Part shown: piece by piece, positions 25,397 through 48,833 of the stretch | How positions within the stretch are numbered: the stretch's first letter is position 1 | Layout: the number at the start of each line of letters is the position of its first letter | DNA from: Cystobacter fuscus | Lineage (GTDB): Bacteria; Myxococcota; Myxococcia; Myxococcales; Myxococcaceae | Assembly (NCBI RefSeq): GCF_002305875.1 | Contig: NZ_CP022098.1 | Coordinates: 5,890,001 to 5,954,000, forward strand | DNA length: 64,000 nt | Reading direction: 5' to 3' | Made by a program: the position numbers and the translations under genes | The notes under the pieces: model-generated | What the model was told of the DNA's origin: nothing | Seen by the model: the letters and a program-made list of their open reading frames with translations, nothing else | Databases searched by the model: none

Positions 25397-25398
25397 GG

Positions 25399-28525: not shown

Positions 28526-28529
28526 GGCC

Positions 28530-29417: not shown

Positions 29418-29443
29418 CCCGTTTGTCCGCTTTTCTCTAAAGT
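29414..29443 (+). promoter_or_regulatory. Candidate sigma-70-type promoter upstream of tssB
   Basis: TTGACC (29414-29419) and TAAAGT (29438-29443) are separated by 18 bases and lie about 100 bases before the tssB GTG. The -35 overlaps the TssG-like stop codon. The 125-base gap here is the largest in the plus arm of the T6SS, so an internal promoter for the sheath/tube genes is plausible. Myxobacterial promoters often deviate from this consensus, so confidence is modest. Confidence 0.35.
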
Positions 29444-29542
29444 GTCGAACCACCACACACAGTGGGTTGTTCTCCTGCGGTGCCGGGCGGCGGAGTCAGG
29501 GGTTCCTCGGGGGATGCAAACCGACTCGTGTAAGGAGATGCC

Positions 29543-30136: not shown

Positions 30137-30181
30137 TCCTCCTCCTCTCCATTCCTCTTCTTGCCGGGAAGCCCATCGCTC

Positions 30182-31672: not shown

Positions 31673-31722
31673 CCGGGCGTCCGTCGTAAATCCTACCCAA
31701 CGCCACCACGCAGGAGGGGTTC

Positions 31723-32301
31723 ATGCCTCAATTTTCTCGTTCCCTGGACGTGTATCAGGGCTTCAACTTCAAGAAGGACAAGCAGTCGGCCGTGGGCTAC
31801 ATCACCGCCCTGAAGGTGGGTGACATCGTCCTCGCCGCCGACCAGGAGACCATCAAGGATCCGGAGCAGCCGGACAAGGTGCTCGCCGGCAAGGTCGTGG
31901 GCGTGCTCAACCACTACATGTGGGAGACGGGCATCACGGACGCGATGTACCTGTCCGCGCAGATCTCCACCAACAACAAGCAGACCCTGGCCGCGGCGCT
32001 GCTCGGCTCGTGGTCCAACGTCGAGGTGGAGCTCACCTACGTGGTCTACGAGTACGACCCGAAGGCGAAGAAGTACTACAAGTCCAACTCGGTGGACGCC
32101 GCGCTCAAGGGCCTGCTGGAGAAGAGCGGGGACGAGCTGAACCTGTCGGTGGCGGATGATCCGTCCAGCGAGGTGCAGTCGCCCAAGAACTTCACCCTGC
32201 AGATCGGCGTGAAGCCGCAGACGCTCGAGCAGACGGTGAACCTGGCCACGGCGTCCGGGAAGAACCTCGTCAAGCAGTGGGGCGTCACCGAGACGGCCTG
32301 A
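31723..32301 (+). CDS. Hcp-like (TssD) tube protein, divergent
   Basis: This 192-residue protein has AGGAGG before its ATG. It is predicted mostly beta: LKVGDIVLAADQET, VELTYVVYEYDPKAK, NFTLQIGVKPQTLEQTVNLA and a closing KNLVKQWGV. Its place right after tssC is where hcp usually sits. The alternating-strand character fits a tail-tube fold, but classical Hcp landmarks are absent. It could be the inner tube (comparable to IglC in Francisella-type systems) or another sheath-associated subunit. No other tube candidate occurs in the locus, which supports the call by elimination. Confidence 0.55.
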   Translation: MPQFSRSLDVYQGFNFKKDKQSAVGYITALKVGDIVLAADQETIKDPEQPDKVLAGKVVGVLNHYMWETGITDAMYLSAQISTNNKQTLAAALLGSWSNVEVELTYVVYEYDPKAKKYYKSNSVDAALKGLLEKSGDELNLSVADDPSSEVQSPKNFTLQIGVKPQTLEQTVNLATASGKNLVKQWGVTETA

Positions 32302-32327
32302 CGTCCCGGAGTCCAGGAGTCCACGAC

Positions 32328-33584: not shown

Positions 33585-33585
33585 C

Positions 33586-33981
33586 ATGAGCCGCCCCTCG
33601 TTCCTCGACAAGTTCACCGGCGCCGCGCCGCGCACGCCGGGCCGCCAGGGCGAGCTGGAGCGGGTGCGGCTCAACCTCGAGTCCGTGCTCAACACCAAGG
33701 AGGGCTACGGCTACTTCGTCGAGGGCTTCGGCCTGGGGCGCTACACGGAGAAGTTCGGCACCCAGGACTTGATGAAGACGCTCACGGGCGAGTTGCTGCA
33801 CGCCATCCAGACGCACGAGCCGCGCCTGCAGGACGTGGAGCTGAAGCTCAAGGGCCGGGACTCGGGATTGTGGCTGCACTTCGTGCTGACCGCTACACTG
33901 CTCGGCGCCCCGTGCACGCTGCGGCTGCTCTTCCATACCGTGAGCGCGCAGGTGCGCGTGGATGAGGACGAGGAGCGATGA
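33586..33981 (+). CDS. tssE: T6SS baseplate subunit TssE (gp25-like)
   Basis: This 131-residue protein begins one base after the tssK stop. FLDKFTG at the N-terminus, LERVRLNLESVLNTKEGYGY and the helix DLMKTLTGELLHAIQTHEPR match the TssE/gp25 plan, with an EPR-containing motif (HEPRLQDVELKL) corresponding to the conserved 'yEPRL' segment. It helps start sheath polymerisation on the baseplate. The stop overlaps the next start (ATGA). Confidence 0.88.
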   Translation: MSRPSFLDKFTGAAPRTPGRQGELERVRLNLESVLNTKEGYGYFVEGFGLGRYTEKFGTQDLMKTLTGELLHAIQTHEPRLQDVELKLKGRDSGLWLHFVLTATLLGAPCTLRLLFHTVSAQVRVDEDEER

Positions 33982-35627
33982 TGGAGCGCACGTTCGAGGA
34001 TCGGCTGTCGGTGGTGCTGACCCTCACGGTGGGGGGAACGGCGCACAAGGTCATCGCCGGCAGCATCAAGCGCGTCGCGCTGGAGCTGTTCAGCTGGGGC
34101 CTGCGGGGCGAGGTGGAGTTCCTGCTCACGGACAACGCGGCCCAGGGCGGCCAGCAGAAGGACGCCCTGCTCGCCGACTTCCTCAAGGCGGATCTGATCG
34201 AGGTCGCGCTCGTCATCAAGGCCGTGCTGCCGGAGGTCGCGGCGCGGGTGACTCCGACGGAGCTGAAGGTGAAGGGCTTCGTCACCGACAAGTCGCTCGT
34301 CGAGGACGTCATCACCACCGGCGACAGCAACCTCATCCTCCACCGCCGCTATGGCATCCGCTTCCAGGACGCCGCCCAGCTCTTGTGGCGCCAGCACCAC
34401 CCCACGGCCCTCTACACCGGGAAGACCGTCAAGGACGTGCTGGAGGCGCACAAGGGGGAGAAGATCTCCCTGAGCTACGACTGGGACGCGGGGCTCGGCA
34501 CGTCGCACCCGGTGCTGTTCCTGGGGTTGGCTCCCCAGGACGGGGCCAGCTTCTACGACTGGGTGATGTGGTACGTGCACGGCCGCGCGGGCGTGTTCAC
34601 CCACGACTACACGACGCACGGCTACAAGTTCGCGGGCGCCAAGGACACCTCGGGCACGCCGCTCACGCTGCACGCGCTCAACCTGTCGGGCATGGAGGTG
34701 CTGATGCCCGAGGTCATCCGCCACGACGTGACGGTGCTCAACGCCACGGCGGTGAGCCCCCAGACCCAGGCCGTCACCCAGACGCACGCCGTCACCGGCA
34801 TCCGCCAGGACGTGCTGTTGTGCACGCCCATCTCCGACGAGGTGCAGGCGCGCGTGAAGCTCGAGACGGCCCGGCTCAAGCCGCGTGAGTCGGAGCTGGA
34901 GCTCGTCTGGCGCTCCTTCCCCGAGAAGGCCGTGACCCCGGGCACGCGGGTGAAGCTGCCCGCCAACGAGGCCTGGAGCGCCGCGGGCGTGGCCAAGGAC
35001 GAGGTCTTCCGCGTGCGCGGCCTGCAGCTGTTCGCCGAGGTGGCGGACGAGGATCAGGAAGAGGTGTACGGCGAGGACTACGCCCTGATGTCCCTGAGCC
35101 TGAGCACCCGGCTGGAGCGCGAGGCGGAGACCCACGTGGACCTGCCCGCCTGGCAGCCCCCGGTCTACCCGCGCTACGTCGAGGGCCTCATCGTCAGCGA
35201 GCAGGGCGGGGAGAAGGACGACACGTGGCAGGCCTACACCGATCCGGACACCTCGGTGGAGGGCTACAAGGTGAAGCTGCCGCTCTTCGCCAATCAGATC
35301 GTCCCCGCGCCCTTCAACCCCAACCTGCTGCCCGGCCACTTCTACTTCCCGGCCTACAAGGGGGAGCGGGTGCTCGTGGGGCTCGACTTCCAGCGCGCGT
35401 GGATCAAGCGCTTCCTGGACTGGCGCACCGGCGCGCGCATGCCCCAGGCGGGGCAGGGCGTCCAACTGCTCGTGGGCAAGACGCCCGAGAATGGCACCGC
35501 GCTCAAGCATTACTACACGGAGGACAAACCCGTGTTCCTGATGCAGCGCACCCATGACAAGGACACCCAGAAGATCCAGCTGAACGAAGGTACGCTGCTC
35601 ATCCAGGTGAAAGAAGAGCCGTCGTGA
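33978..35627 (+). CDS. VgrG-like spike core without beta-helical tip (TssI, split form)
   Basis: This 549-residue protein overlaps the tssE stop by four bases. The first ~380 residues resemble the gp27-like hub of VgrG (RRYGIRFQDAAQLLWRQHH, ASFYDWVMWYVHGRAGVF). Residues about 385-520 resemble the gp5 OB-fold (YPRYVEGLIVSEQGG, LLPGHFYFPAYKGERVLVGL). The chain ends at LNEGTLLIQVKEEPS, just where the triple-stranded beta-helix needle of an ordinary VgrG would begin. A separate 200-residue beta-repeat protein encoded 44 bases later probably supplies that part. A second, longer paralogue lies at 45403-47334; the two share the DAAQ(L/V)LWRQH motif. No effector extension is present. Confidence 0.83.
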   Translation: MMERTFEDRLSVVLTLTVGGTAHKVIAGSIKRVALELFSWGLRGEVEFLLTDNAAQGGQQKDALLADFLKADLIEVALVIKAVLPEVAARVTPTELKVKGFVTDKSLVEDVITTGDSNLILHRRYGIRFQDAAQLLWRQHHPTALYTGKTVKDVLEAHKGEKISLSYDWDAGLGTSHPVLFLGLAPQDGASFYDWVMWYVHGRAGVFTHDYTTHGYKFAGAKDTSGTPLTLHALNLSGMEVLMPEVIRHDVTVLNATAVSPQTQAVTQTHAVTGIRQDVLLCTPISDEVQARVKLETARLKPRESELELVWRSFPEKAVTPGTRVKLPANEAWSAAGVAKDEVFRVRGLQLFAEVADEDQEEVYGEDYALMSLSLSTRLEREAETHVDLPAWQPPVYPRYVEGLIVSEQGGEKDDTWQAYTDPDTSVEGYKVKLPLFANQIVPAPFNPNLLPGHFYFPAYKGERVLVGLDFQRAWIKRFLDWRTGARMPQAGQGVQLLVGKTPENGTALKHYYTEDKPVFLMQRTHDKDTQKIQLNEGTLLIQVKEEPS

Positions 35628-35671
35628 AGAGGGAGGGGGGCCCTCGCGCCTCCCACCGGTGAGGGTCGATC

Positions 35672-36274
35672 ATGGGCACACTTGTCTGCACCGTCGAGTT
35701 GGACAAGGAAAAGGGCGTCACCGTGAAGGTGGAGAACGCCGACGGGAAGATCACCCAGACGGTGGTGATGGACGGCACGAGCATCACCCTCAAGGTCCAG
35801 GGCGACTCGGAGACGAGCACCGTCGTGCAGAAGCAGGACAGCATCACCATCACCTGCAAGGACTTCACCGTCGATGCCACCGGCACGCTCACCCTCAAGT
35901 CCGCCAAGGCCTCGAGCTGGGCCAGCCAGGACATCCTCAAGGTGGAGAGCACCAAGGACATGACGCTGGACACCAAGGCCAAGCTCACCCAGAGCGCGGC
36001 CCAGGACGCCAAGCTGTCCTCCAACACCAACGTGACCGTGGAGGCGACGTCCAAGCTCGATCTCAAGGGCATGCAGACGAGCCTCACGGCCTCGGCGGGA
36101 GACAACAAGGTGGAGGGCGTCAACCTGAAGATGGCCGGCAAGGCCCAGGCGGAACTGTCCGCGCCCATGACGAAGGTGGAGGGCCAGGCCAAGCTCGGTC
36201 TGGAGTCCTCGGGCGTCGCGGAGCTCAAGGGGACGATGACCACCGTGGGTGGTTCGCTCGTGAAGGTGGGGTGA
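35672..36274 (+). CDS. Stand-alone beta-helical spike (VgrG C-terminus-like)
   Basis: This 200-residue protein is made almost entirely of short alternating strands rich in T, S, K, V and D: SITLKVQGDSET, SITITCKDFTVDATGTLTLK, LSSNTNVTVEATSKLDLKGM. This is the same texture as the triple-stranded beta-helix at the end of VgrG or phage gp5 (compare the 'itikA.g.itl.a' repeats). No signal peptide or TM segment is present. Encoded directly after the truncated VgrG core, it most likely trimerises onto it as the needle. Alternatively it is an accessory structural protein. Function is inferred from texture and position. Confidence 0.66.
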   Translation: MGTLVCTVELDKEKGVTVKVENADGKITQTVVMDGTSITLKVQGDSETSTVVQKQDSITITCKDFTVDATGTLTLKSAKASSWASQDILKVESTKDMTLDTKAKLTQSAAQDAKLSSNTNVTVEATSKLDLKGMQTSLTASAGDNKVEGVNLKMAGKAQAELSAPMTKVEGQAKLGLESSGVAELKGTMTTVGGSLVKVG

Positions 36275-36275
36275 G

Positions 36276-37931
36276 GTGGCGGTGAGTGACTCGTCGGACC
36301 GGATCTACCTGGAGTACCTCAACGAGCTGGATGCGCTCGAGCGCTTCCGGCAGCGCTTCCTGACGGCCTACCCCACCGTGCCCCTGGACCGGGAGGATCC
36401 GCACGTGCGGCGCCTCGTGGAGTCCATGGCCTTCTTCGCCGTGCAGACGCGCGCGGCCACGCAGCACAACGTGCGCTCCACCTGGCTGCGGCTCTTCTCC
36501 TCCTTCTTCGACTTCCTGCTCCAGCCCCTGCCCGCGGTGGCGATGGTGCAGGCGCTGCCGGGGGACAAGATGACGGAGACGGTGGTGCTGTCGCGGGGCA
36601 CCGAGCTGCGGCTGTCACCCGCCCATGGCTCGCCCGGGAGCTTCCGCACCCGGCGCCACCTGCGCGTCCTCCCCATCGCCCCCGCGGGCACCGACGTGGT
36701 GCGGCTGGCGGATGGGCGCTACCGGCTCATCCTGCGCTTCGAGTCCAGCTTCGCCCGGAGGGATCCCGTGGGCATGTTCAGCCTGCACGTGCGCCACCTG
36801 GACGAGTACCGCCCCTCGCTCGCCGTCTTCCACGCGCTGCGCCAGCACCTCAAGCAGGTGTCGGTGCTCTACGACACGCCCGCCAGCGAGACGTCCCAGG
36901 GCACCCCGTGCGAGTTCTTCCTCGGCGACTCTCCGGCCGAGCTGGACGACGCGGGCGTCTACGAGCACCCGCTGCACCGCGTGCGCGCCTTCTTCCAGAT
37001 GCCCGAGCAGGGGCTCTTCCTCCACGTCTCCGTGCCCTCGCACCGCAAGGAGTGGAGCCGCTTCAGCCTGTGCCTGGACCTGGACAAGTCCTGGTCCGTG
37101 GGCCGCTCGACCCACCCGGACTTCCTCGTGCCCTTCGTCGTGCCGGTGGAGAACCTCAAGGCCGAGCCCGCCCAGCCGCTCATCGCCGATGGCACCCGCT
37201 CCGAGTTCCCCATCCGCGGCATGACGGCCGGCAGGGATCTGCGGCTGCACTCGATCACCGGCGTGTTCACCCTGGGCCGCTCGGGGCGCATGCCCATGCG
37301 TCCCGCCTTCCTCCCGGGCGAGGGGCCGAGCTACGAGCTGGATGAGTCCCTGGACGCGGAAATGCGGCCGCGTCACAGTCTGCTCGTGTCCCTGCCCGAG
37401 GCCTTCGCCGAACCCCAGAAATTGTTGGTGGAAGCCCTCTGGCACCAGCCGGACTTCATCACCGAGGCCGTCGGCCGCGTGGGCATCTCCATCCCGGGCC
37501 GGCACGTGGAGGGCCTCGATTGGCGGCTGGCGGGCCGGCTCGAGGCCCACCGCGACAGCACGCTGCGCCAGGACGTGGCGGGGCTGACGCGCCTGCTCGC
37601 CTGGAAGGTCAAGTCGACCCTGGATCGCAACGAGCTGGCCGCGTTGCTCAACTACCTGGGCACCCCCGTCGACGAGCCCTTCAACCGCGTGCTGCCCTGG
37701 GTGCGCGAGCTCAAGGCCACGGTGGCTCCGGACGGGGCCCTGCGCGGCTCGGGCCTGCTCCACGTCTACGAGATGATCCTGGAGCCCTTCGACTCCAGCG
37801 CCGAGCCCCTCGTGGCCTGTTTCCTCGAGCAGATCCAGCGCCTGCTGGAGGCCTGGAACGGCGAGGCCTCCGTGGTGCTGCGCTCGTCGATCGCGGGAGC
37901 GGGCGCCTTCCCGGTGAAGACCTCCTCATGA
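36276..37931 (+). CDS. tssF: T6SS baseplate subunit TssF
   Basis: This 551-residue protein has a GTG start one base after the preceding stop. The opening YLEYLNELDALERFRQRFLT and HVRRLVESMAFFAVQTRAAT match the TssF N-terminus. Later parts include ETVVLSRGTELRL and FRTRRHLRVLPI, the beta-rich wedge domain, and PLHRVRAFFQMPEQGLFLHV. TssF dimers with TssG form the baseplate wedge. Length is slightly short of the typical 580-600. The stop overlaps tssL by four bases. Confidence 0.85.
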   Translation: MAVSDSSDRIYLEYLNELDALERFRQRFLTAYPTVPLDREDPHVRRLVESMAFFAVQTRAATQHNVRSTWLRLFSSFFDFLLQPLPAVAMVQALPGDKMTETVVLSRGTELRLSPAHGSPGSFRTRRHLRVLPIAPAGTDVVRLADGRYRLILRFESSFARRDPVGMFSLHVRHLDEYRPSLAVFHALRQHLKQVSVLYDTPASETSQGTPCEFFLGDSPAELDDAGVYEHPLHRVRAFFQMPEQGLFLHVSVPSHRKEWSRFSLCLDLDKSWSVGRSTHPDFLVPFVVPVENLKAEPAQPLIADGTRSEFPIRGMTAGRDLRLHSITGVFTLGRSGRMPMRPAFLPGEGPSYELDESLDAEMRPRHSLLVSLPEAFAEPQKLLVEALWHQPDFITEAVGRVGISIPGRHVEGLDWRLAGRLEAHRDSTLRQDVAGLTRLLAWKVKSTLDRNELAALLNYLGTPVDEPFNRVLPWVRELKATVAPDGALRGSGLLHVYEMILEPFDSSAEPLVACFLEQIQRLLEAWNGEASVVLRSSIAGAGAFPVKTSS

Positions 37932-38566
37932 AACTCGAGCATTGGCAGATCGTCCTGCAGACCTACCGGCAGGTGCGTCTGGTGTTGGATCAATCCCTGC
38001 CGCCAGAGCCCATCGACGGTGAGCCGATCCCCCAGGTCCGCGTGGGTGCCCAGGGGCTGGCGCTCGTCCACCAGCAACTGCTGGCGGAGGTGAAGGGTCT
38101 CGAGCAGGCGCTGGGCAGCGCGTACCGGGAGGAGGAAATCAGGGAGGCGATGCGGCCCTTCGTCTACCTGCTCGACGAGCGGGTGCTGCGCCGGCTCACG
38201 GACGCCGAGGACGCGCAGTGGAGCCTGCTCCAATACAAGGAATACAAGACCGACGCGGGCGGCGATCATTTCTACGAGCTGGCCGACGAGAAGCTCGCGC
38301 AGCGGGTGGCCTCGCCGCTGGTCTTCGAGATGCTGCACTTCTGTCTCACCGCCGGCTTCGAGGGCCGCTACACGGGCAACAAGGCACGGCTGCGTGAGTA
38401 CAAGGAGCGGCTGGCGGCGCGCATCCCCAAACCCGAGGCCGTGCCCGCTCCCCCTCCAGCCGTCGGACAGGCCCCCCTCGTCCATGCCTTCCCGTTGCGC
38501 TACTACCTCGTCTCCAGCGCCGTGGTGGTCACACTCCCGGTCTTGCTCTGGTGGTTGTCGAGATGA
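37928..38566 (+). CDS. tssL: T6SS membrane complex subunit TssL (DotU-like)
   Basis: This 212-residue protein has an N-terminal cytoplasmic helical domain (REAMRPFVYLLDERVLRRLT, SLLQYKEYKTDAGGDHFYEL, PLVFEMLHFCLTAGFEGRYT) and a single C-terminal TM helix (YLVSSAVVVTLPVLLWWL). This is the tail-anchored plan of DotU/TssL. It bridges baseplate (TssK) and TssM at the inner membrane. There is no OmpA-type peptidoglycan-binding extension. It overlaps both the upstream and downstream genes by four bases. Confidence 0.9.
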   Translation: MKLEHWQIVLQTYRQVRLVLDQSLPPEPIDGEPIPQVRVGAQGLALVHQQLLAEVKGLEQALGSAYREEEIREAMRPFVYLLDERVLRRLTDAEDAQWSLLQYKEYKTDAGGDHFYELADEKLAQRVASPLVFEMLHFCLTAGFEGRYTGNKARLREYKERLAARIPKPEAVPAPPPAVGQAPLVHAFPLRYYLVSSAVVVTLPVLLWWLSR

Positions 38567-38874
38567 AGGACGAGGCGCAGAAGAAGACACAGCCGGTGGG
38601 GGCCCGGTCCCAGCTGGGGCACCTCGAGCAGATCATCCGCGACGAGCTGGGCTCGCTCCACGTGGCGGTGGAGCCGCTGCTGGCCAGGGTGCGCGCGGAC
38701 GTGAGCGCGCTCTATCCGGAGTCGGGTGGCACGCGCCTGGCCCCCAAGGAGCAGGAGGGCCGGCAGGACGAGCTCCTGGGCACGTTGAATGAATTGGAAG
38801 ATGTGCTGGAGGCGCTCCAGTTGGCTGTACGCTCGGGCCGTCCTGGTCCCTCCGCGGCCAGTGGAGAGGAGTGA
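38563..38874 (+). CDS. Small helical protein between tssL and tssM
   Basis: This 103-residue protein has an ATG that overlaps the tssL stop (ATGA) and ends three bases before the tssM GTG. It is hydrophilic and helical, with heptad-like leucines (LLGTLNELEDVLEALQLAV), and has no TM segment or signal. I do not recognise a family. Tight coupling to both membrane-complex genes suggests it works with TssL/TssM, perhaps as an assembly factor. Other T6SS loci carry unrelated small genes here. Confidence 0.7.
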   Translation: MKDEAQKKTQPVGARSQLGHLEQIIRDELGSLHVAVEPLLARVRADVSALYPESGGTRLAPKEQEGRQDELLGTLNELEDVLEALQLAVRSGRPGPSAASGEE

Positions 38875-38877
38875 GCC

Positions 38878-41800
38878 GTGGGGTGGCTGCTGAACGTGGT
38901 CGTGTCGGAGTCATTGAGCGCGGCGGATCCAGCCAAGGCGATGGAGGCGGGAGCGCAGTCGGTCGCCGCCAGTGAGTCCGCGTTCCGGAAGTTCTGGAAC
39001 GCGGTGGGCCCCTACGTACCCTGGGTGCTGTTGTTGCTGGGCCTGGCGCTCGCCGTGTTCCTCGGCTGGAAGCTGGTGAAGTGGTGGCGCGCCCGGCGCG
39101 CGGCCGCTCCGGCCGCCAGTGGCCCTCCGCCCATGGCTACCCAGCGCCTGGTGCACGTGCGGCGCACCTTCCTCAATGGACTGCCGCTCGCCCACCGCGC
39201 CGCCGTGGTGGATCTGCCCACCGTGGTGGTGTTCGGACCCGCGGGCAGCGGCAAGACGAAGCTCATTGGCCTGGACGTGGACTGGCAGCGCCAGGCGCGC
39301 CAGTACCTGCCCAGCTACACGTCGGATCCACTGCTGCAGATGTACCTGGGCCCCGACTGCGTGGTGCACGAGGTGTCGGCGCCGCTGCTCGAGGACGAGA
39401 CGCTGTCGGCCCGGACGGCCCTGCGGCGCATGTGGGGCAGGAGCTTCAGCCACCGCCAGCAGGGACTGGCCGTCATCGTCCTGGACGTGCGCTGGCTGTC
39501 GGATACCCCGCCCGACGAGCAGCGGCGCTTCGCCCAACTGCTGCGCGGCAAGCTCAACCTGATGTCCGAGGCGAGCCGCGGTCCGGTGGAGACGCGCCTG
39601 TGCCTGACGAACATGGACGGGCTGGAGGGCTTCGAGGACTTCGCCCGGCTGCTCAAGACGCATGGCGCGGCGCTCGCCTTCGACATTCCCCGGCAGGGCG
39701 AGGAGGACGGGCTGTCCTCGCTGCTGCGCAACCAGGAGCAGTACCTGGCCCTGGGCCTCACGTCGCTGCCCGTGGACTCCTTCGAGCGGCTGGAGCGCTT
39801 CTACTCGCAAGGGGGGCGCTCGTTCTCGGGGCTCGGCCGCTTCGTCACCGCGCTGCTCGAGGGCGATACCCTCTCGTTCAAGCCGCTGCTCTCGCGTGTC
39901 TACCTCTCCTCGCTGACGCCCGAGGCGCGCGCCAGCGGCACGCTGTCCGTGGTGGCCGCGGAGGGCGCCAACGACTCGATGCGCAAGCTGTACCTGCGCA
40001 CCCACCTGCGCCGCGCCGCGGGCATCGCCGCGGTGTGCTGTCTGCCCGTGCTGGCCGCCTACGCGAACTTCTACCTGTTGCTCGACGACGCCCAGGACGA
40101 AGTGACGGTGCTCGAGGAGACGGTGACGCAGCTGCGCGAGCAGGGGCTGGAGGGCAGGGGAGAGGTCGTCGAGGGCCAGGTCAACAAGGCCGCCGAGGCG
40201 CTGCTGCACCTCGAGCGCGCCGAGCGCTGGTGGCCGCCCCTGGAGACCAGCTTCCCCGACGAGACGCTGGAGCTGCGCCAGCGCCTGGCCAGTGGCATCC
40301 GGGAAATCCACCTGCGGCCCGCGCTCGAGCGCTGCCGCAAGCAGCCCCAGGCCTGCCGCCCCGAGCAGGTCGTGTATCTGCTGGCCACCCTCCACGCCTC
40401 GAATGGGGACGGTCTGGGCACGTTCGTGATGTCCAACCTCCAGAAGGGCTCGCGCCGGTTCGGCTCCAAGTCCGCCGCGCCGGACACGCTGTCCGGTGCG
40501 TCCCACCGCACGTGGATCTCCGCGCTCGAGCTGAGCGAGCCGCTGATCGCCACCTACATCCTCGCCAGTGATCAGCCCTGGGAGCGCACGCCGCCGTGCC
40601 GCCGCGACACGACGGTGCAGCTGTCCAACAACGAGGAGGTCTGGTCCTGCTGGCCCCTCGCGGAGCGGCTCACGTTCGAGAGCCAGCTCAAGCCCTGGTT
40701 GGATCACCTCCGCTTCCTGCGCCGCTCCCTCGAGGCCGGCCCCCGGGGCATCGCCGAGTTCGACCTGCGCCGCGAGGAGCGCGAGCGGCTGCTCGCGCAG
40801 CTGGCCGACCTGGACGTCTACGCGTCCCTGCCCACGCTGCTCAACCTGTTCGACGCCTCCACGGTGCAGGTCAACACGCGCTACTTCCAGGGCATCGAGA
40901 CCACCGTCGACGTGCTCGAGTGGTTGCGCAACAACCGGGAGGCGCTCACGGCGGTGCTGCGCATGGAGGATGATGCCTACTCGGGGCTGCTCGCGGTGCG
41001 CAAGATGGGCGCCTCGGAGCTGCTCACCCGGGATGGGCTCTGGCTGCCGGGCAGCAACAAGGGCCCCTACCGCATCGAGCTGCTCCAGGAGTCCTTCGAG
41101 TTCGTTCCCGAGAAGCTCTCCCGGGAGCTGCTCCAGAAGGAGCTCGACATCCAGGAGGCCAATGGCCAGCTGACCGTGAACGCCCAGGCCGCCGTGCGCC
41201 CGGGGGCGATGGTGCTCAGCCGTACCGCCTTCGAGACCGACTTGAAGCCCCTGGTGGATGACTTCACCCAACGCATCAAGAGCGCCCAGCTCCCCACGGA
41301 CGAGGCCGCCCGGCGCTCCCAGTACGTGCAGAAGCGCGTGAACGGGTTCTCCCAGGGCTACCGCGATGGCCTGTTCCACACCGTGGACCAGTACCGCTTC
41401 AACACCTCGCGCAAGCTGCTCATCGACGAGCTGGGGCGGCTGTCCCAGCCCTCCTCCGGCCAGGTGGACATGCTGCGCGAGGTGGCCGAACGGGCCAACC
41501 TGGATCCGCTCGAGGGGCCCTACTACGAGCCGCTGCGCAACGCCGTGGCGCCCTTCCGCCCCGTCGTGCAGCTCATGGTGGCCGACAAGAGTGGCTTCTA
41601 TGCCGCGCTCGCCCCCTACCAGGCGCTCGTGGCGCAGATGCGCGACGAGCTGGATGCCGGAGCCAAGGCCAAGAGCGCCAAGGACGCGGCTGCCAAGGAC
41701 GCGCCGGCCCCCGACAAGGAAGCGGCGCCCGAGGACGGCACCGCGACCGATGCCCAGCTGTCGGAGATGATCACCCCGCTGGAGAAGGTCGCCCTCGCCA

Positions 41801-42651
41801 TGCTGCTCGAGGAGGAGGGCTCCTACCTGCGCAAGGCCCAGGCGTGGCTGGACTCCCAGGGCATCACCGGCGAGTTGCGCCAGCCCTTCCTCGCGCCCTT
41901 CCTCACGGTGCAGCGCCTGGGCAAGGAAGAGCTGGAGAACACCCTGGGGCGGGAGTGGGAGGAGGCCTCGTCGCGCATGTTGCGGCCCCTGCTCACGCGC
42001 TACCCCTTCAACCCCGACGCCAAGGAGGACGTGGATCCGAGTGAGCTCGAGGTGCTGCGCCGCAAGGATGGCGCCTTCTGGCACTTCGTGGAGCAGGTGT
42101 ACTCGCGCGTGTGCGTGGAGCGGGGCACCCAATGGGCGCTGCGCGGCACCCTGCGTGACAAGCTACAACTGCCCGAGTCCCTGCTGCCCACCCTCAGCCA
42201 GGTGGCGCGGCTGTCCAAGCTGCTGTGGGACGACGAGGGCCGCCCTCGGCCGCTCATGCTCAAGGTGCAGCCCCAGCCCCTGCCGCCCCCACCGATGCCG
42301 GGGGTGTTCGTCACCATGTCGTCCCTCAAGTGTGGCAAGACGACCGCCTACGGCTTCAACCAGAGCCCCTCCTGGCAGGACTTCCCGCTCAACTGGTGGG
42401 ATCAGCAGGTGTCCTCCATCGTGTTGGAGCTGCGCTCGCCCTCGCGCGATGATCCCAAGTTCTTGTCCCTGCCCTGGAATCGCTCTATCTGGAGCTGCTT
42501 CCGTCTCTTCGAGGAGGCCCTGGTCACGACCGATCAGCGCCGCCAGTGGAGCCTGGTCCTGCAGGGGAACAACGTGAACAAGCGGGGAGTGGACATCAGC
42601 TTCGGCCTCAAGGGAGACCCGTGGGTGCCGTTCCGGGAAGTGCCGCGATGA
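38878..42651 (+). CDS. tssM: T6SS membrane complex subunit TssM (IcmF-like)
   Basis: This 1257-residue protein has a GTG start. A TM helix lies near residues 47-65 (VPWVLLLLGLALAVFLGW). A cytoplasmic GTPase-like domain follows, with Walker A GPAGSGKTKL (120-129). Then come the second TM (near 378-400, AAGIAAVCCLPVLAAYANFY) and a long periplasmic region. The large C-terminal domain ends with FGLKGDPWVPFREVPR. TssM spans the envelope between TssL and the outer-membrane lipoprotein TssJ. An A/K/P/E-rich low-complexity linker lies near residue 940 (AKAKSAKDAAAKDAPAPDKE). Length is normal for the family. An intact Walker A suggests nucleotide binding may be used. Confidence 0.92.
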   Translation: MGWLLNVVVSESLSAADPAKAMEAGAQSVAASESAFRKFWNAVGPYVPWVLLLLGLALAVFLGWKLVKWWRARRAAAPAASGPPPMATQRLVHVRRTFLNGLPLAHRAAVVDLPTVVVFGPAGSGKTKLIGLDVDWQRQARQYLPSYTSDPLLQMYLGPDCVVHEVSAPLLEDETLSARTALRRMWGRSFSHRQQGLAVIVLDVRWLSDTPPDEQRRFAQLLRGKLNLMSEASRGPVETRLCLTNMDGLEGFEDFARLLKTHGAALAFDIPRQGEEDGLSSLLRNQEQYLALGLTSLPVDSFERLERFYSQGGRSFSGLGRFVTALLEGDTLSFKPLLSRVYLSSLTPEARASGTLSVVAAEGANDSMRKLYLRTHLRRAAGIAAVCCLPVLAAYANFYLLLDDAQDEVTVLEETVTQLREQGLEGRGEVVEGQVNKAAEALLHLERAERWWPPLETSFPDETLELRQRLASGIREIHLRPALERCRKQPQACRPEQVVYLLATLHASNGDGLGTFVMSNLQKGSRRFGSKSAAPDTLSGASHRTWISALELSEPLIATYILASDQPWERTPPCRRDTTVQLSNNEEVWSCWPLAERLTFESQLKPWLDHLRFLRRSLEAGPRGIAEFDLRREERERLLAQLADLDVYASLPTLLNLFDASTVQVNTRYFQGIETTVDVLEWLRNNREALTAVLRMEDDAYSGLLAVRKMGASELLTRDGLWLPGSNKGPYRIELLQESFEFVPEKLSRELLQKELDIQEANGQLTVNAQAAVRPGAMVLSRTAFETDLKPLVDDFTQRIKSAQLPTDEAARRSQYVQKRVNGFSQGYRDGLFHTVDQYRFNTSRKLLIDELGRLSQPSSGQVDMLREVAERANLDPLEGPYYEPLRNAVAPFRPVVQLMVADKSGFYAALAPYQALVAQMRDELDAGAKAKSAKDAAAKDAPAPDKEAAPEDGTATDAQLSEMITPLEKVALAMLLEEEGSYLRKAQAWLDSQGITGELRQPFLAPFLTVQRLGKEELENTLGREWEEASSRMLRPLLTRYPFNPDAKEDVDPSELEVLRRKDGAFWHFVEQVYSRVCVERGTQWALRGTLRDKLQLPESLLPTLSQVARLSKLLWDDEGRPRPLMLKVQPQPLPPPPMPGVFVTMSSLKCGKTTAYGFNQSPSWQDFPLNWWDQQVSSIVLELRSPSRDDPKFLSLPWNRSIWSCFRLFEEALVTTDQRRQWSLVLQGNNVNKRGVDISFGLKGDPWVPFREVPR

Positions 42652-43178
42652 GCGCGCGTGGACGCGCGTGCCTGGGCCTGCTGGCGCTCGTGCTGGGGGC
42701 CTGTGGGCCGAGTCAGATCAACATCGCCGTGAAGTCGCCCGTGGGCACCAACATGGGCCGGCCCCTGTACATGCTCGTGCGGCAGGTGGACCCCAAGCAG
42801 TACGCCAACGAGGCGTACTCCGAGGTCGCCGCCCGCGTGGGTGTTCCGGACACCACCGTGTTGCAGACGGCCGTCATCTACCCGGGCACCATCCAGCGCT
42901 TCCAGGTGAAGGCGCCCAAGGAGGGCTCGGTGGCGCTCTCCTTCCTCTTCACCGCGCCGGACGGCAACTGGCAGGTGCTGCTCAGCCCGCCGCTGGCGAG
43001 CGCGGTGGACGTGGAGCTGGCCACGAGCCGCATCCTGCGCGACACCATTCCCCAGGGTCCCTCCCTGGACGAGCCCCCGACGGCCCCCGAGGGCGCTCCG
43101 GAAGTCAAACCGCCCGAGGCCCCCAAGGCGCCGGAAGCTCCCAAGGCACCGGAAGCCCCCAAGCTCGGCGGCAAGTAG
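42648..43178 (+). CDS. T6SS outer-membrane lipoprotein TssJ-like
   Basis: This 176-residue lipoprotein (lipobox VLGAC, Cys19) overlaps tssM by four bases. The mature part (about 25-125) is a small beta domain (PLYMLVRQVDPKQY, PGTIQRFQVKAPKEGSVALS) matching the transthyretin-like TssJ plan, including the 'plylrvyqL' strand. A proline/alanine-rich tail with repeats (PPEAPKAPEAPKAPEAPKAP) follows and is absent from typical TssJ. It should bind the periplasmic end of TssM. It is the last gene of the plus-strand T6SS arm. Confidence 0.82.
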   Translation: MSARGRACLGLLALVLGACGPSQINIAVKSPVGTNMGRPLYMLVRQVDPKQYANEAYSEVAARVGVPDTTVLQTAVIYPGTIQRFQVKAPKEGSVALSFLFTAPDGNWQVLLSPPLASAVDVELATSRILRDTIPQGPSLDEPPTAPEGAPEVKPPEAPKAPEAPKAPEAPKLGGK

Positions 43179-43181
43179 CGC

Positions 43182-45149
43182 TCAGCCCGTCAGCTCGCGC
43201 ACCCGGGTCTCGGTCCTTCCCATCACCGAGTCCACCTGGGTGCGGGCCTGCTCCACCACCGGGGCGAAGGGGCTGTTGTCGCGCAGCGAGGCCTCCAGTG
43301 TGTCCAACGGCACGAGGAGCCGCTCCTTCGTCGAGTCCACCTGACCGAGCATTCCGTCGAGCTGTTCGGCCGCGGGAGCTCCCACGCTCCCGGCCCGCTG
43401 GGTGAAGGCGCCGAGCACCTGATCCACCTGCTGCGTCACCGTGGTCTCGATGCGCTCGATGCCCTCGCGAGCCCCGGCGAGCGCCGAGTCCACCGTGCCG
43501 CCGATCGCGTCCAGGCCGGAGCGCACCCGCTCCTGGGCGGCGGCGAGCTGCTGCTCGAGCTGGGCCTCCACCGCCGCCACCTGATCGGCCGCCGCCTGGA
43601 CTCCGTCCGCGAGGGTCTGCTGGAGCGTCGCGAGCTGCCCGCTCACCAGCTCCTGGAGGGACTCCACGCGCGTGGCCACCTGGGCCTGCATCGCCTCCAC
43701 CTGGCTCACCACCTGGTCGCGCGCGGTGCCGATCTGCTGCGTCACCTGCGCCACCAACTGCTCGGCCTGGGTGACGGCCTGATCGATACCGCCCTGCACC
43801 GACTCGGTCAGGGATTGAATCTGTTGCAGGAGCTGCTCCTGCATCGTCTGCACCTGCTGCACCGCCTGCGCCTGGACCTGCTCCACCTGGGAGATGACCT
43901 GATCCTGCACCGTGGTCATCTGCTGACCCACCTGCGAGGTGAGGGTGCCGAGCTGGGTGGAGATCTGCGTCACCACCTGTTTGATGGCCTGGACGGCGGG
44001 ATCCACCAGTGGCTTGGGGAGATCCGCGGCGGGGATGGCCTCCAGCATCTGCACCGCCCGGGCCAGCAGCGACTCCAGCGTGCCCACCAGCGTCTTGAAC
44101 AGGGTCTGGAGTTGCTCGAGCTTTTCGGGCAGGGCGGTGAAGATGGCCTGGAGCTGCTTCTCCAACTGCTCGAGCGTGTCCGTCAGCCCGTCGAACACCT
44201 TGAAGGCGGAGTCGATCGCCAGGCGCGCCGGGGCCTGGATGGACTCGAAGGTGGTGAGCGCCGTGCTCATCAGCGCGTCGATGGCGCCGACGCCCTGGGT
44301 GATGAGCGTGTCGATCTGCTCGCCCACCTGCTGGAGGAACTGCTCCACCACCTCGAGCTGCTGGCTCAGCGAGCGCATCGGCCCGCCCAGCGTCTGATCC
44401 AACGCGTCGAGCATCTGCCCGAGCTGCTGGGCACCCGCCTGGAGGGCGGCGCCGACGGTGGTCTCCAGCGTCTGGAGTACCTGATCCGCCGCCTGGGTGG
44501 CGCCCTGCACCTGGGTGCGCAGCGGCTGGAGTCCGGAGCGCAGCTGCTCCACCTGACGTCGCACGGTCGCCTTCGAGGACTCGCTCGCGGATTGGATCTC
44601 CTGGTGGAGCTGCTCCAGGGCGGGGAGAACCGGGGCGAGCACCGCCTCGAGCGCGGCGAGCAACCGCTGGACCTCCGCGTCCACGGAGCCGCGCGTGCGC
44701 GCCACCTGGCCGGACACCGAGTCCACCGTGGTCGCGAGCTGGGAGTGGGCGCCCTGGAGGTGCGCATCCGTCTCGCTCCCCGTCGTGCGCAGCAGCTCCT
44801 GGAGTTGCTGCTCCCGGGCCTCGAGCCCCGCCACCTCCTGCTGGAGCTCCGCCTTGCTCCGGGCGGTGTTGGCGCGCGCCGCCTCCTTGCGCTGCTGGAG
44901 ACGGGCCGTGCCCTCGCTCAAGAGCGCCTCGCGGCGCCTGGCGGTGTCCTGGCCGAGCGACTCGAGCTGCTGGGCGAAGGAGTCGTGCGAGCCCTTCACC
45001 TGCTCCTCCAGGGCATCACACCGCGAGGAGACCGAGGGCGTGAGCTCCTTCACCGAGTCGCGCACGCGCTCCCCGGAGCCGTCGAGCCGCGTGCGCAGGC
45101 CCTGTACCTCGTCCGCCGTCTGGTCGAACCGCGTCCACAGCGCCTTCAC
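43182..45149 (-). CDS. Long amphipathic coiled-coil protein in the T6SS minus arm
   Basis: This 655-residue protein is almost wholly helical and amphipathic, rich in Q, V, L, A, E and T, with repeating patterns such as QVISQVEQVQAQAVQQVQTM and IGTARDQVVSQVEAMQAQV. The texture is like apolipoprotein-type repeats or tape-measure-like helices. One more hydrophobic stretch lies around 330-400. There is no signal peptide or enzyme motif. The GTG start (45149) directly follows, in the same frame, the TGA of the 74-residue gene, with GGAG six bases before it. Convergent tssJ ends three bases away. I do not know its function. Candidates are a sheath-associated ruler, a membrane-active helical effector, or a partner of the helical tail of the adjacent VgrG. 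Confidence 0.7.
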   Translation of the reverse strand: MKALWTRFDQTADEVQGLRTRLDGSGERVRDSVKELTPSVSSRCDALEEQVKGSHDSFAQQLESLGQDTARRREALLSEGTARLQQRKEAARANTARSKAELQQEVAGLEAREQQLQELLRTTGSETDAHLQGAHSQLATTVDSVSGQVARTRGSVDAEVQRLLAALEAVLAPVLPALEQLHQEIQSASESSKATVRRQVEQLRSGLQPLRTQVQGATQAADQVLQTLETTVGAALQAGAQQLGQMLDALDQTLGGPMRSLSQQLEVVEQFLQQVGEQIDTLITQGVGAIDALMSTALTTFESIQAPARLAIDSAFKVFDGLTDTLEQLEKQLQAIFTALPEKLEQLQTLFKTLVGTLESLLARAVQMLEAIPAADLPKPLVDPAVQAIKQVVTQISTQLGTLTSQVGQQMTTVQDQVISQVEQVQAQAVQQVQTMQEQLLQQIQSLTESVQGGIDQAVTQAEQLVAQVTQQIGTARDQVVSQVEAMQAQVATRVESLQELVSGQLATLQQTLADGVQAAADQVAAVEAQLEQQLAAAQERVRSGLDAIGGTVDSALAGAREGIERIETTVTQQVDQVLGAFTQRAGSVGAPAAEQLDGMLGQVDSTKERLLVPLDTLEASLRDNSPFAPVVEQARTQVDSVMGRTETRVRELTG

Positions 45150-45402: not shown

Positions 45403-47334
45403 TCACCGCAGCTTCTTCAGCGAGGCCTTGGCCGACTCGCTCGCCGCCGAGAGCTGACCGGAGCCCTGGGACAGCTTCGAGGAGGCGCTCTTCATCCCAC
45501 TCTTGGCCTTCGCCACCTTGGCGCCCACCTCCGCGCGGGCCGCCTTCATCGCCGTCTTCATCGCCGCCTGGGCGCTCTGCATCTTCGCACGCGAGGCGCT
45601 CATCGCGCCCTGGAAGGCCGCCGACGTCTGTCCGAGCGAGTCGCCCACCGACGCCGAGAGGTCTCCCTTGGCGGCCTCGACTTGAGGGGTGACGTCATAG
45701 GTGGGCGTGGGCGTCTTCGAGGCCCCGGTCTCCTTCACCTGGATGAAGAGGTTGCCCTCGCGCATGCGGATGACCTGGGTGTCACCCCCCGAGGTGCGCA
45801 GCATGCGCCACACGGGCTTGTCCTCCTGGAAGTCATGGGTGAGCGCCGTCTGGCTCGACTTGCTCTCGCCCAGGAGGATCTGATCGCCCTGGCCGGACTG
45901 GGGTGTGCGCACGCCTTCCTTCCACGCGAGGAAGCGCAGCAGCTCGGCGCGCTCGTGGTGGAGCGCCACCAGCACCCGGGTGCGCTTGTACGGCGGGAAG
46001 AAGAACTGGCCCGGCACGTGCGTGGGCTCGGCGGGCACGCTCACGGTCTTGTTCCACAGGGGGACGGTCATCCGGAAGTCGGTGATCGAGGTCTTCTCGT
46101 CCTCGACGATGAGGTAGCGCCGATCCTCGGGCTCGCCGCCCGGGCTGTGCACCAGGCCCTCGACGTGGATGGGGTAGCGGGGGACGCGGTAGGCGGGCAG
46201 GGAGACCGCGGTCTCGGAGGTGGACTCCAGCCGCAGCGACATCCGCACCGCGTAGGGGGCCTGGAGGTCCTGCTGCTGCTCGTACGGGCCCGCGCCCTCG
46301 GCATGGGCCTCGAAGTCCAGCTCCGCCACCCGCATGTCCTCGCCGAGCCCCGTGAGGGACGCGGGCCAGAGCGAGCCCTCCAGGCGCAGCAGCGCGCCGG
46401 GGAAGACATCCACCGTGGGATAGCGTTTGAAGGCGACCTGGAGCTGGCGCTGGTGGAGCTTCAGGCGCGTCTTCTCCAGCTTCTCGCGCTCATCGGCCCG
46501 GTTGGCCAGCGGGGTGCGCACCAGCACGTCGTGGAACGTGCCCTGGACGGCCTGGGGTTGATCGATCGGCGTGGTGGTGGGGCCCTGGGCCACGGCGTTG
46601 AGCACCCGCGCCCCATGGCGGATGGGCGGCGGCAGGAGCACCCGCGTGCGGTGGATCCGGAGCGGACCGAGCGGCGCCGCCTGACCCGAGGACGGCTTGC
46701 TGTCGGCGAAGAGGTACTCGTTCTTCTGGCTGTCGTAGCTGAAGACGCCCTGGTGCGCGTCCACGTACCAGCAGACGTAGTCGTAGAAGCTGACCCCGGG
46801 CTCGTCCGCGCCCAACGCCAGGCAGATCATCGGCTGCTTGCGCTTGAGCTCGGTCCAGTCGAGCGCGAGCTTGAGGCTGGCCTTGTGCGCCTCGAGCAGC
46901 TCCTTCATGGAGAAGTGGGTGTGCAGCTCGATGGGGCGGTGCTGCCGCCAGAGCACCTGGGCGGCGTCGGCGAAGTCGAGCGTGTAGCGGCGGAAGACGC
47001 GATTGGAGCCCTGGACGGTGCCGTGCTCCTCCGCCACCAGGCGGCGGCCGCGCACCAGGCCCTTGAGGACGAGCGGCGCCGGAGGCGAGGTGAGCTCGGG
47101 ATCCTCCGCGGCGATGGAGACGCGCACCTCGATGAGATCCGGCTTCTGGAAGGCGGTGAAGAGGGGGGCGTCCTGCTTCTCCAGCAAGGTCCAGAAGGTC
47201 ACCGCCGCGGTGAAGCCATACGAGGCCAGCTGCACCGACAGGTGTTTGATCTGCCCACCGGGGATGGAGAAGGTGCTGCCGCCCGCCGTGAGTGACAACT
47301 CCAGCCGGAGATCGTCGTGAAATGTCTTGCCCAC
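45403..47334 (-). CDS. Second VgrG-like protein with alpha-helical C-terminal tail
   Basis: This 643-residue protein is a paralogue of the VgrG core at 33978. Both share the hub (RRYTLDFADAAQVLWRQHRP, VSFYDYVCWYVDAHQGVFSY) and OB-like part (YPIHVEGLVHSPGG, VPGQFFFPPYKRTRVLVAL), ending in REGNLFIQVKE. Where the first VgrG stops, this one continues for about 100 residues of Ala/Lys/Ser-rich helix (AAMKTAMKAARAEVGAKVAK, SGQLSAASESAKASLKKLR) instead of a beta-helix. The GTG at 47334 is preferred (GGGAGG seven bases upstream) over an upstream ATG at 47382. Coiled-coil genes follow directly, suggesting an alternative helical tip or adaptor assembly. Confidence 0.8.
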   Translation of the reverse strand: MGKTFHDDLRLELSLTAGGSTFSIPGGQIKHLSVQLASYGFTAAVTFWTLLEKQDAPLFTAFQKPDLIEVRVSIAAEDPELTSPPAPLVLKGLVRGRRLVAEEHGTVQGSNRVFRRYTLDFADAAQVLWRQHRPIELHTHFSMKELLEAHKASLKLALDWTELKRKQPMICLALGADEPGVSFYDYVCWYVDAHQGVFSYDSQKNEYLFADSKPSSGQAAPLGPLRIHRTRVLLPPPIRHGARVLNAVAQGPTTTPIDQPQAVQGTFHDVLVRTPLANRADEREKLEKTRLKLHQRQLQVAFKRYPTVDVFPGALLRLEGSLWPASLTGLGEDMRVAELDFEAHAEGAGPYEQQQDLQAPYAVRMSLRLESTSETAVSLPAYRVPRYPIHVEGLVHSPGGEPEDRRYLIVEDEKTSITDFRMTVPLWNKTVSVPAEPTHVPGQFFFPPYKRTRVLVALHHERAELLRFLAWKEGVRTPQSGQGDQILLGESKSSQTALTHDFQEDKPVWRMLRTSGGDTQVIRMREGNLFIQVKETGASKTPTPTYDVTPQVEAAKGDLSASVGDSLGQTSAAFQGAMSASRAKMQSAQAAMKTAMKAARAEVGAKVAKAKSGMKSASSKLSQGSGQLSAASESAKASLKKLR

Positions 47335-47421
47335 CGGCGGTCCTCCCTGTCGCGTCCGGACGCGCCGTTCATCATCGCACATCCCCTCGGTCCGTGCGCC
47401 AGTCCCGCGCGCGGCACGAGC

Positions 47422-48833
47422 TCAACCGCGCAGGGGCAGGGTGAGCTCGAGCTCGAGGCGGGTGCCGGCCAGCTCCGGTGGAAGCGCGGCGCGCACGTGC
47501 AGGCCCCGCTCGCCCCGGCCCAGGGACACCACCTGTCCCTTCAGCTCGCAGCGGCGGCCCGGGCCCGCGGGAAGGAACGCGCTCGCGGCGCGGGCGCACA
47601 CCTCCGAGATGGCCTGGGGAGTGGCCTGGGGGGCAGCCGCTCGGCGACCTCCTGGGCGAGGCGGACGATGCGGCCGGTGAGCAGTTGCGCGGGGAGGGGC
47701 GCCGCGTCCCGGCCACCGTACACGGTGGGAGCCGCCGCCAGGTTCACGTCCCGCGAGTCCCACCACCCACTCACCCCCGCGAGGCCCCGCGAGGCCAGCC
47801 GCTGCTGCTCCCGGAGGGAGAGGCACGCCTCGGTCGCCACCGGACCCCGTCCCTCCTGGGGTTGCCACGCGGCGGGCGCGCGCACCGCGCTGCCCGGACC
47901 CACGAGTCGCGCGAAGGTGTGGGTGTCGCGGAAGCTCGCCGCCAGCAGCGCCGCCACGCCCAGCACGGGACTGGCGAGGCACTCGTCGTGCACCTCTCCG
48001 TGCCGCTCGGCGCGCATCACCACCGGGTTGAGCGTGGCGCACAGCCAGCGCGAGGACTCGTCGGCGCGCAGGTGATTCCAGGCGTCCGGGGGGCGGACGT
48101 CCTGGGCGCCCGCGAGCCCGGCACCGCCCAGGGACGCGGGGGCGGCCATGACGAGGGGCAACCAGGCCTGCTCTCCCAGCGCGGCGAGCCTCCCCGGGAT
48201 GGCCGGGTCCTCGCCCACGTCCAGCAGGAAGCAGGCATCGGGACGCTGGAGCGCGGGCCCTTCGAGGCTCGCGGCGAGGGTGTCCACGAGCGCCTCGGGT
48301 CCGACGTCCAGCACCTCGAGGTCCATGCCCGCGGAGGCGGGGCATTGCGTCCACAACCAGTGCAGCCCGCGCCAGGCCGACTCCAGCCGGGCCACGAGCG
48401 GATGCTGGAGCAGCTCCCGGACGGTGGTGAACAGGGCCTCCTCGACGAGGGCGAGCGAGGCGGAACGGGAGGAGCGGGCGCGCGCCAGTGCCTCGGTGAG
48501 GCGGCCCTGGCCCAGCATGTCCCGGAGGTGGGCGGCGTCCTGGGGCGCCAGGGGGCGCGTGCTGGAGATCGCCTCGCGCAGGGCGCTCAGGGCACGCAGC
48601 TCCGGCAGGGAGGCGATGAGCGCGGACATCCCGAAGGCGTCCAGCGAGCCGAAGGACAGCGCGTGGGTGCTCGTGTCGCCCGAGCCGATGCGGTCCGGCA
48701 CGGTGACGCGCAGGCCCGTGGTGGCGCGCCGGAGCTCCTCGGCGAAGGACTGCTCGGTGAGCGGGAAGCGCCTTCCCGTGGGCGAGGGATGGAAGGCGCC
48801 GGCGACGAGCCAGCGCACGCGGTTGCCGGACAT
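47422..48833 (-). CDS. TssB-TssC fusion-like sheath protein, frameshifted near its C-terminus
   Basis: Residues about 15-100 align with TssB (RVTVPDRIGSGDTSTHALSF, then MSALIASLPELRALSALREA). Residues about 125-430 align with TssC (LLQHPLVARLESAWRGLHWL, LVMAAPASLGG, AWNHLRADESSRWLCATLNP, VLGVAALLAASFRDTHTF). One polypeptide thus carries both sheath subunits in shortened form. The frame then breaks at a run of six G (47628-47633, C on the coding strand). Without correction it ends in an arginine/proline-rich run at 47541. One added C gives a TssC-like ending (ATPQAISEVCARAASAF, then LELELTLPLRG) stopping at 47422, 470 residues in all. The start ATG overlaps the aroG stop (TGATG). It may be a sheath cap or baseplate-proximal element; the role is inferred. 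Confidence 0.68.

Follow-up and report, generated by a model that had tools for sequence, protein, structure and literature searches.

Why would a bacterium whose type VI secretion system (T6SS) already has the two separate sheath genes, tssB and tssC, carry another gene in which both sheath modules are joined in a single chain? Such a gene lies on the reverse strand of the DNA analyzed here, a 64,000-nucleotide stretch (the window) of the 12.35-Mb single-contig genome of Cystobacter fuscus. The first-pass annotation had assigned a protein with TssB-like and TssC-like modules to 47422-48833; strand, domain order and coordinates were right, except that this span overruns the main frame, which ends near 47,633 (Table 1). 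As an open reading frame, the fused gene occupies 47541-48836 on the reverse strand and encodes 431 amino acids.

Table 1. Coordinates in the window of the fused gene, its modules and the neighboring T6SS genes
Feature	Position	Strand	Basis or remark
Single-chain TssB-TssC protein, main frame, short form	47634..48833	-	ATG at 48833
TssB-like module, ~residues 6-120	48477..48821	-	PF05591, hhalign (long-form numbering 13-130)
TssC-like module, in-frame part	47634..48476	-	PF05943, hhalign, fold of relative
TssC-like module, C-terminal end, other frame	47422..47633	-	One-base length difference from two relatives
Canonical tssB	29543-30136	+	TIGR03358, 168.5 bits, cut-off 97.25
Canonical tssC, IglI-type cluster	30161-31672	+	TIGR03355, 493.4 bits, cut-off 271.5
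Rest of T6SS cluster	27500..43178	+	Profile matches
Spike-like protein, second copy, C-terminal extension	45403..47382	-	Next gene on the fused gene's strand
Coiled-coil protein, downstream, same divergent gene set	43182..45149	-	Apolipoprotein-like repeats under cut-off

Taken alone, the window protein matches VipB/TssC (PF05943) over the cut-off (E 2.4e-10, residues 129-191, 40.4 bits against 27) and TssB (PF05591) under it (E 7.6e-4, residues 27-92, 19.8 bits against 24), and a search of this single sequence against PDB sequences gave nine weak matches at E<=10, of which eight are TssB/TssC chains in the expected order and one is a kinesin (E 2.5). Within alignment A2, which holds 25 proteins after 6 of 31 scan loci were excluded as incomplete, PF05943 was matched at E<=1 by all 25 homologues (best 6.4e-23) and PF05591 by 24 of them (best 5.8e-9), so that the profile search proposed with the first-pass annotation bore out both modules. 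A family profile built from alignment A1, which comprises twelve short forms (464-483 aa) and thirteen long forms (545-555 aa), had 17 matches at E<=10 among PDB sequences: seven TssC chains (best 2.6e-15, in two collinear stretches), eight TssB chains (best 1.7e-6), a "putative type VI secretion protein" (0.24) and a designed protein (3). Profile-profile alignment with hhalign covered 117 columns of TssB (E 3e-10) and 388 columns of TssC (E 4.2e-20). By this alignment and by the matches of the family profile to solved TssB chains, the fused protein has a homologue of the TssB core from beta2 to the C-terminal helices. The gp25-like VipB_2 region is reached by the profile alignment and by the predicted fold; PF18945 (VipB_2) itself was not matched at E<=1 by any of the 25 proteins in either A1 or A2. 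Chance similarity to TssB and TssC is ruled out by the family profiles together with the predicted fold. A phage origin was likewise rejected: the window protein has no match at E<=1 among the PHROGs families, and the family profile matches TssB/TssC chains and no phage sheath sequence among the PDB sequences. That one chain carries a TssB-like and then a TssC-like module is thus confirmed; profiles, fold and conservation agree, and the TssC landmarks follow in the order first described. The protein had also been called shortened, which holds mainly for the TssB N terminus and the junction between the modules and not in the sense that a whole domain is lost.

Near 47,633, at a base run, the window gene differs by one base in length from its counterparts in two relatives (G001 and G003), which are 90-93% identical to the window copy and in which the reading frame runs uninterrupted through the gene. 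The last 64 codons of the window gene, read in the other frame, contain two or three amino-acid-changing differences from these relatives. dN/dS amounts to 0.25-0.27 upstream of the frame change, to 0.10-0.14 downstream of it and to 0.20 between the two intact relatives; the fused gene is under purifying selection (dN/dS 0.20-0.27). The low dN/dS past the frame change and the intact relatives, together with the location in a base run, argue that the break is either an assembly error or a very recent mutation, and programmed frameshifting is ruled out, since both relatives read straight through. While the shifted frame could be taken as a sign that the window copy is a decaying or nonfunctional relic in this genome, the low dN/dS on either side of the shift, the intact relatives and the base run make such decay highly improbable.

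To what kind of structure would the joined modules fold? AlphaFold2 models of a short form from Archangium violaceum (L068; pLDDT 88.3, pTM 0.89) and a long form from Myxococcus xanthus (L084; pLDDT 82.0, pTM 0.82) are both confident across the modules. In Foldseek, T6SS TssC chains take all five top places among the PDB matches of the short-form model (E 2.2e-11 to 1.8e-10). Among the VIA-align matches listed, the short form reaches Z scores of 21-23 with TssC and of 14.6-21.7 with the one-chain sheaths of phages, pyocins and eCIS, and the long form 24-26 with TssC and up to 22.5 with a one-chain sheath; many of the one-chain superpositions listed run nearly end to end, with spans such as residues 4-456 of the model. 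The last, C-terminal strand of the fused protein is present in the short-form model. Together, these matches suggest that the chain holds one whole sheath protomer, and the fused protein is accordingly predicted to fold as one. The structure prediction proposed at the outset, as run on these two relatives, thus returned a sheath subunit.

Among the closest known systems are two kinds of sheath. With the two-chain TssB/TssC sheath (VipA/VipB, IglA/IglB), it shares collinear profile similarity to both subunits and the same predicted fold, but it is a single chain, lacks the TssB N-terminal arm in the window's group and scores far under the NCBIfam cut-offs, the TIGR03355 match reaching 28.8 bits for the window protein and 36.8 for L068 against 271.5, and the TIGR03358 score of L068 being 11.7 bits against 97.25. 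The one-chain sheaths of phages, R-pyocins and eCIS (3j9r, 8kee, 6rap), in turn, are superposed nearly end to end by the predicted fold, whereas the sequence kinship of the fused protein is to TssB and TssC, and it lacks the 17-24 additional N-terminal residues that one-chain sheaths have before the beta2 strand in the rows compared. The antifeeding prophage and PVC particles (AFP/PVC) likewise use multiple sheath proteins per particle, as described in PMC8894135; theirs, however, are eCIS with one-chain sheath proteins, whereas here the fusion stands beside a two-chain sheath. TssE/gp25 and the eCIS cap adaptors resemble it in a proposed handshake-compatible domain at a sheath end (PMC5813253, PMC8894135), but these are not whole sheath protomers, as the fused protein is predicted to be. 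No account of a natural TssB-TssC fusion turned up in searches of full-text literature that covered few subscription papers and no preprints; one candidate match proved to concern a GFP fusion.

Separate tssB and tssC genes, as the first-pass annotation had noted, are also present in the window, and both score over their NCBIfam cut-offs. The cluster around them includes IglI (276.6 bits, cut-off 100) and TssK over NCBIfam cut-offs, TssE and TssF over Pfam but under NCBIfam cut-offs, TssL, TssM and an IglE-like lipoprotein under NCBIfam cut-offs, and a very weak TssG-like match (E 0.022). At the edge of this IglI-type cluster, 25306-27078 (+) encodes an acyl-CoA-ligase-like protein (weak matches) that is kept in L060, L061 and L063 at 77-82%; the 2605-aa protein of 17579-25396 (+) consists of many near-identical repeats of ~115 residues with a tail that looks MYXO-CTERM-like by eye. 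The next gene on the strand of the fused gene encodes a spike-like protein that is 40% identical to that of 33978-35627, has ~100 extra C-terminal residues and finds a Francisella PdpA chain as its best T6SS match in the PDB (E 0.088). We regard it as putatively VgrG/PdpA-like, by position and weak similarity only; the name VgrG was ruled out, Pfam, NCBIfam and PHROGs giving no support for it. In 10 of 14 other loci (among which L068 repeats L039), the short form has this spike-like gene as its immediate neighbor; in L037, L038, L040 and L041, the two lie 5-9 kb apart. In relatives, the coiled-coil gene follows the spike-like gene, and the same cluster gene order was found in the four relatives whose retrieved sequence extends far enough (L060, L061, L063 and L064). 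All 13 short-form genomes have a tssC within 26 kb on the same contig, with VipB_2 scores of 119-126 bits, as for the window's own.

For the long form of the Myxococcaceae, no other recognized T6SS gene was found within ~9 kb in any of 13 stretches (L047-L059), and in one M. xanthus genome, AM003 (L084), the long form likewise lies away from recognized T6SS genes. Seven of the 13 outgroup loci have the fused gene beside core T6SS genes (L079, L081, L083, L087, L088, L090 and L091) and four beside FHA and lipoprotein genes (L085, L086, L096 and L097); L082 has a lipoprotein gene as its sole such neighbor, and L094 begins inside the fused gene. In L079, L081 and L087, tssA precedes and hcp follows the fused gene, the order being tssB-tssC-tssA-fused-hcp in two outgroup loci, and Pfam matches in L087 and L083 confirm TssA, TssC, Hcp, TssF, TssG, a ClpB-like ATPase and a T6SS FHA protein. 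In nine loci (e.g., L083:8834-9898 and L090:8715-9857), the gene immediately preceding the fused one is lipoprotein-like; that of L083 has no Pfam match. T6SS genes also occur in 12 of the 18 deeper loci, where the fused gene is convergent with canonical tssC in L122, L123, L124, L128, L130 and L132, and one gene lies between the two in L131. At the level of genomes, canonical TssC was present in 24 of 24 with the fused gene, so that the fused protein is additional to it throughout, versus 9 of 74 without, among 98 related genomes. Since 9 of the 33 genomes with canonical TssC lack the fused gene, a T6SS can exist without it.

How widespread is the fusion, and how did it arise? Among the 98 related genomes, 29 had a match, of which 5 (G023, G091, G093, G095 and G096) were excluded as canonical TssB/TssC, leaving 24. 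Within the window's phylum group, a survey of 195 genomes returned 48 matches and, after exclusion of four canonical ones (G095, G096, G105 and G121), 44 genomes with the fused gene, all in one family; it was not found in the genus g26 genomes listed among those 195. From 377 genomes of the phylum of Plesiocystis (G200), 33 matched, and setting aside 7 with E worse than 1e-30 (G240, G328, G382, G457, G514, G538 and G547) left 26 clear members, a deep subgroup among them. While these searches covered two related groups, a species-genome collection was scanned with two short family motifs, which yielded 31 loci, all in records titled myxobacteria, Polyangia or unclassified deltaproteobacteria but for one titled Comamonas. 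The latter record (Comamonas sp. KCTC 72670; L075, BNCN01000009.1) carries a myxobacterial fused gene, and its label is probably wrong. The survey of homologues that had been suggested for this locus therefore finds the fusion conserved across several myxobacterial groups. In a tree built after 6 identical sequences were removed from 50, the short forms make up one clade (13 rows, support 100/100) nested inside the long forms. Stop-to-stop frames in the deep subgroup span 627-834 aa, and alignment relates this subgroup to TssB at E 4.7e-16, to TssC at E 1.3e-33 and to the window family at E 3e-50; fused genes in the deep loci were called by BLAST and by a simple gene caller that missed the gene in some of them.

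The long form also bears on the origin of the fusion. Between its modules it has a stretch such as LVETLL followed by AVDAFL, which profile alignment places at the very N terminus of the VipB chain; the stretch is looser in most outgroup proteins, the pattern for it having been written after seeing the sequences, and the same pattern did not find the segment in short forms. That a segment resembling the TssC N terminus sits within the chain suggests that tssB was fused to tssC, rather than that a one-chain ancestor survived. The long form, in which this segment appears to serve as an internal linker, differs in this from the one-chain sheaths of phages, R-pyocins and eCIS, in keeping with a secondary fusion.

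What the fused protein lacks concerns the arms by which sheath subunits hold each other. According to PMC5807055, two TssC strands of the Pseudomonas aeruginosa sheath are completed by neighbors' strands, one from the C terminus of TssC and one from the N terminus of TssB, and PMC5813253 describes each sheath subunit as reaching with two linkers into the ring on its baseplate side. In Vibrio cholerae, contraction is governed by the length of the VipA N-linker, and mutated subunits enter the assembly with dominant effect (PMC5797969). The TssB-like module of the fused protein begins directly at the strand equivalent to TssB beta2, and the N-terminal donor arm is absent: of the 44 distinct proteins in the window's group, 43 have 5-12 residues before beta2 (5-10 in the 12 short forms scored), the remaining one being missed by the pattern. 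The deep subgroup (in L114-L132) has its own conserved glycine-rich N-tail before beta2 (GGMNFNVGEE-like), which is unrelated to the TssB arm, so that the missing arm is not universal; this tail could be a new kind of donor arm. Some other divergent members, for example L111, L116, L133 and L139, begin near beta2, by eye.

Two single residues required in V. cholerae, VipB D333 for contraction and K223, whose change to alanine blocks sheath assembly, are described in the same study (PMC5797969). At the D333 column (position 317 of the printed chain plus a derived offset of 16, the first visible residue being 61), an acidic residue was found in 12 of 12 canonical myxobacterial TssC proteins versus none of 44 fused proteins, and at the K223 column a basic residue in 12 of 12 versus one of 44; most deep members have an acidic residue at the D333 column or one position beside it. 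In a control, however, 9 of the 14 charges conserved in canonical TssC over that stretch were lost in the fused proteins, so that the losses at K223 and D333, though in keeping with non-contraction, prove little by themselves and were ruled out as proof of it; the assembly block caused by K223A weakens the argument further.

A further difference between the two forms concerns ClpV, which recognizes a helix before the TssC core (PMC5048182); one class of TssC carries an LLDEII motif in the recognized region, as described in PMC4239648. The window's canonical tssC has no LLDEII-like motif at its N terminus, by eye. ClpV over the cut-off was found in 26 of the 98 genomes and in all 14 long-form genomes; it was not found over the cut-off in 4 of 13 short-form genomes (G010, G030, G031 and G039), nor within the window's T6SS cluster, the ClpV of this genome that scores over the cut-off lying at G000:C1:3830399, ~2 Mb away. 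Given that the short form arose once, this correlation amounts to a single event.

Taking fold, arms and neighborhood together, our leading reading, with a probability of roughly 0.45, is that the fused protein is a third sheath subunit, kept beside TssB and TssC and placed in a specialized end ring, most probably the one that sits directly on the baseplate. The myxobacterial T6SSs would have gained this third, single-chain subunit when tssB was fused to tssC. It would keep the gp25-like C-terminal region and the last strand, which ordinary sheath subunits donate to a neighbor, and the window's group would lack the other donated arm, the N-terminal TssB strand whose length controls contraction. 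A first ring on the baseplate would accept both arms of the first TssBC ring and would itself be held by one arm, the layer below being TssE in the geometry of PMC5813253; a protomer that takes arms from above and offers one arm below fits this position. Such a starter ring may anchor or start the polymer and would not be pulled into contraction through the N-linker; eCIS particles, with their several sheath proteins and their cap adaptors that imitate the handshake, offer precedents (PMC8894135). Of the roles suggested in the first-pass annotation, namely capping the sheath, starting its polymerization or regulating its length, each is possible, and the anatomy would suit an end ring that stays out of contraction. 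The long form, with its TssC-N-terminus-like segment, might be recycled by ClpV with the rest of the sheath, and the short form, having lost the ClpV-type segment, would serve the IglI-type (Francisella-like) T6SS, which has no ClpV of its own. What the analysis shows is homology, module order, predicted fold, conservation, linkage to T6SS genes and co-occurrence with TssC; incorporation into the sheath, position, non-contraction and ClpV binding are what we infer for the fused protein. The more specific proposal that fused TssB-TssC forms a starter ring of its own at the baseplate, one that does not contract, such that the sheath would not be uniform and its first ring would be the product of a separate gene, appears possible but doubtful.

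The same anatomy would also suit a protein that mixes into the sheath at random sites and halts elongation or contraction there, setting sheath length or a firing threshold as a dominant-negative subunit. Engineered VipA/VipB variants that cannot contract are known to join the sheath and to prevent firing at low dose (PMC5797969). Yet a constitutive poison of the cell's own weapon needs tight dosing, and the location of the gene among core T6SS genes in several outgroup genomes suggests a structural role, which leaves such a brake unlikely. If the fused protein acted instead in the cytosol, as a soluble assembly or recycling factor that binds TssB/TssC, Hcp, the spike or ClpV and is absent from the finished sheath, the spike-like gene adjoining the short form or lying a few kilobases from it would be accounted for, as would the segment of the long form that resembles the one recognized by ClpV; PMC13373197 offers a precedent for structural mimicry in the VgrG-like TvpC, which precedes VgrG in a pre-complex. 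We consider this role unlikely, since a chaperone would hardly require the whole protomer fold predicted here.

A specialized ring could also sit at the distal end of the sheath, opposite the baseplate, and terminate it there. A distal six-fold star of unclear composition in V. cholerae has been fitted as sheath subunits or TssA (PMC5813253), and eCIS cap adaptors mimic the handshake (PMC8894135); however, a ring with nothing above it would hold on by its arms, and one of these is missing in the window's group, so that a distal cap is unlikely; together with the brake and the soluble factor, it is among the main rivals. Finally, one chain that contains the sheath modules, as in phages, could in principle form a homopolymeric sheath or tube of its own as an alternative to TssBC. 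The distribution of canonical TssC has been relevant here: it was found in 8 of 10 and in 18 of 23 of the genomes reached through loci, G197 and G198 being negative in both sets, and the five of the 23 in which it was not found are G197, G198, G342, G497 and G576. G197 and G198 (Sandaracinaceae) have no VipB_2 match, and VipB is matched in them by the fused protein only. However, tssC lies on the same contig as the fused gene in G352, whose fused protein, judged by eye, is almost identical to the one in G198, so that the fused protein as sole sheath protein of the Sandaracinaceae was rejected and the absences of TssC may be draft gaps. With the N-terminal arm missing as well, a separate homopolymer is very improbable.

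A third sheath subunit in an end ring thus remains the reading that we favor. The T6SS of M. xanthus is described as 13 core genes in one cluster with an orphan vgrG (PMC5801462), and its sheath structure has been solved (5urw/5urx). If the reading is true, a separately encoded protomer without one of the linking arms bears on how the sheath starts, on the onset of contraction and on the distal end, and these questions about the sheath ends would become genetically testable in M. xanthus.
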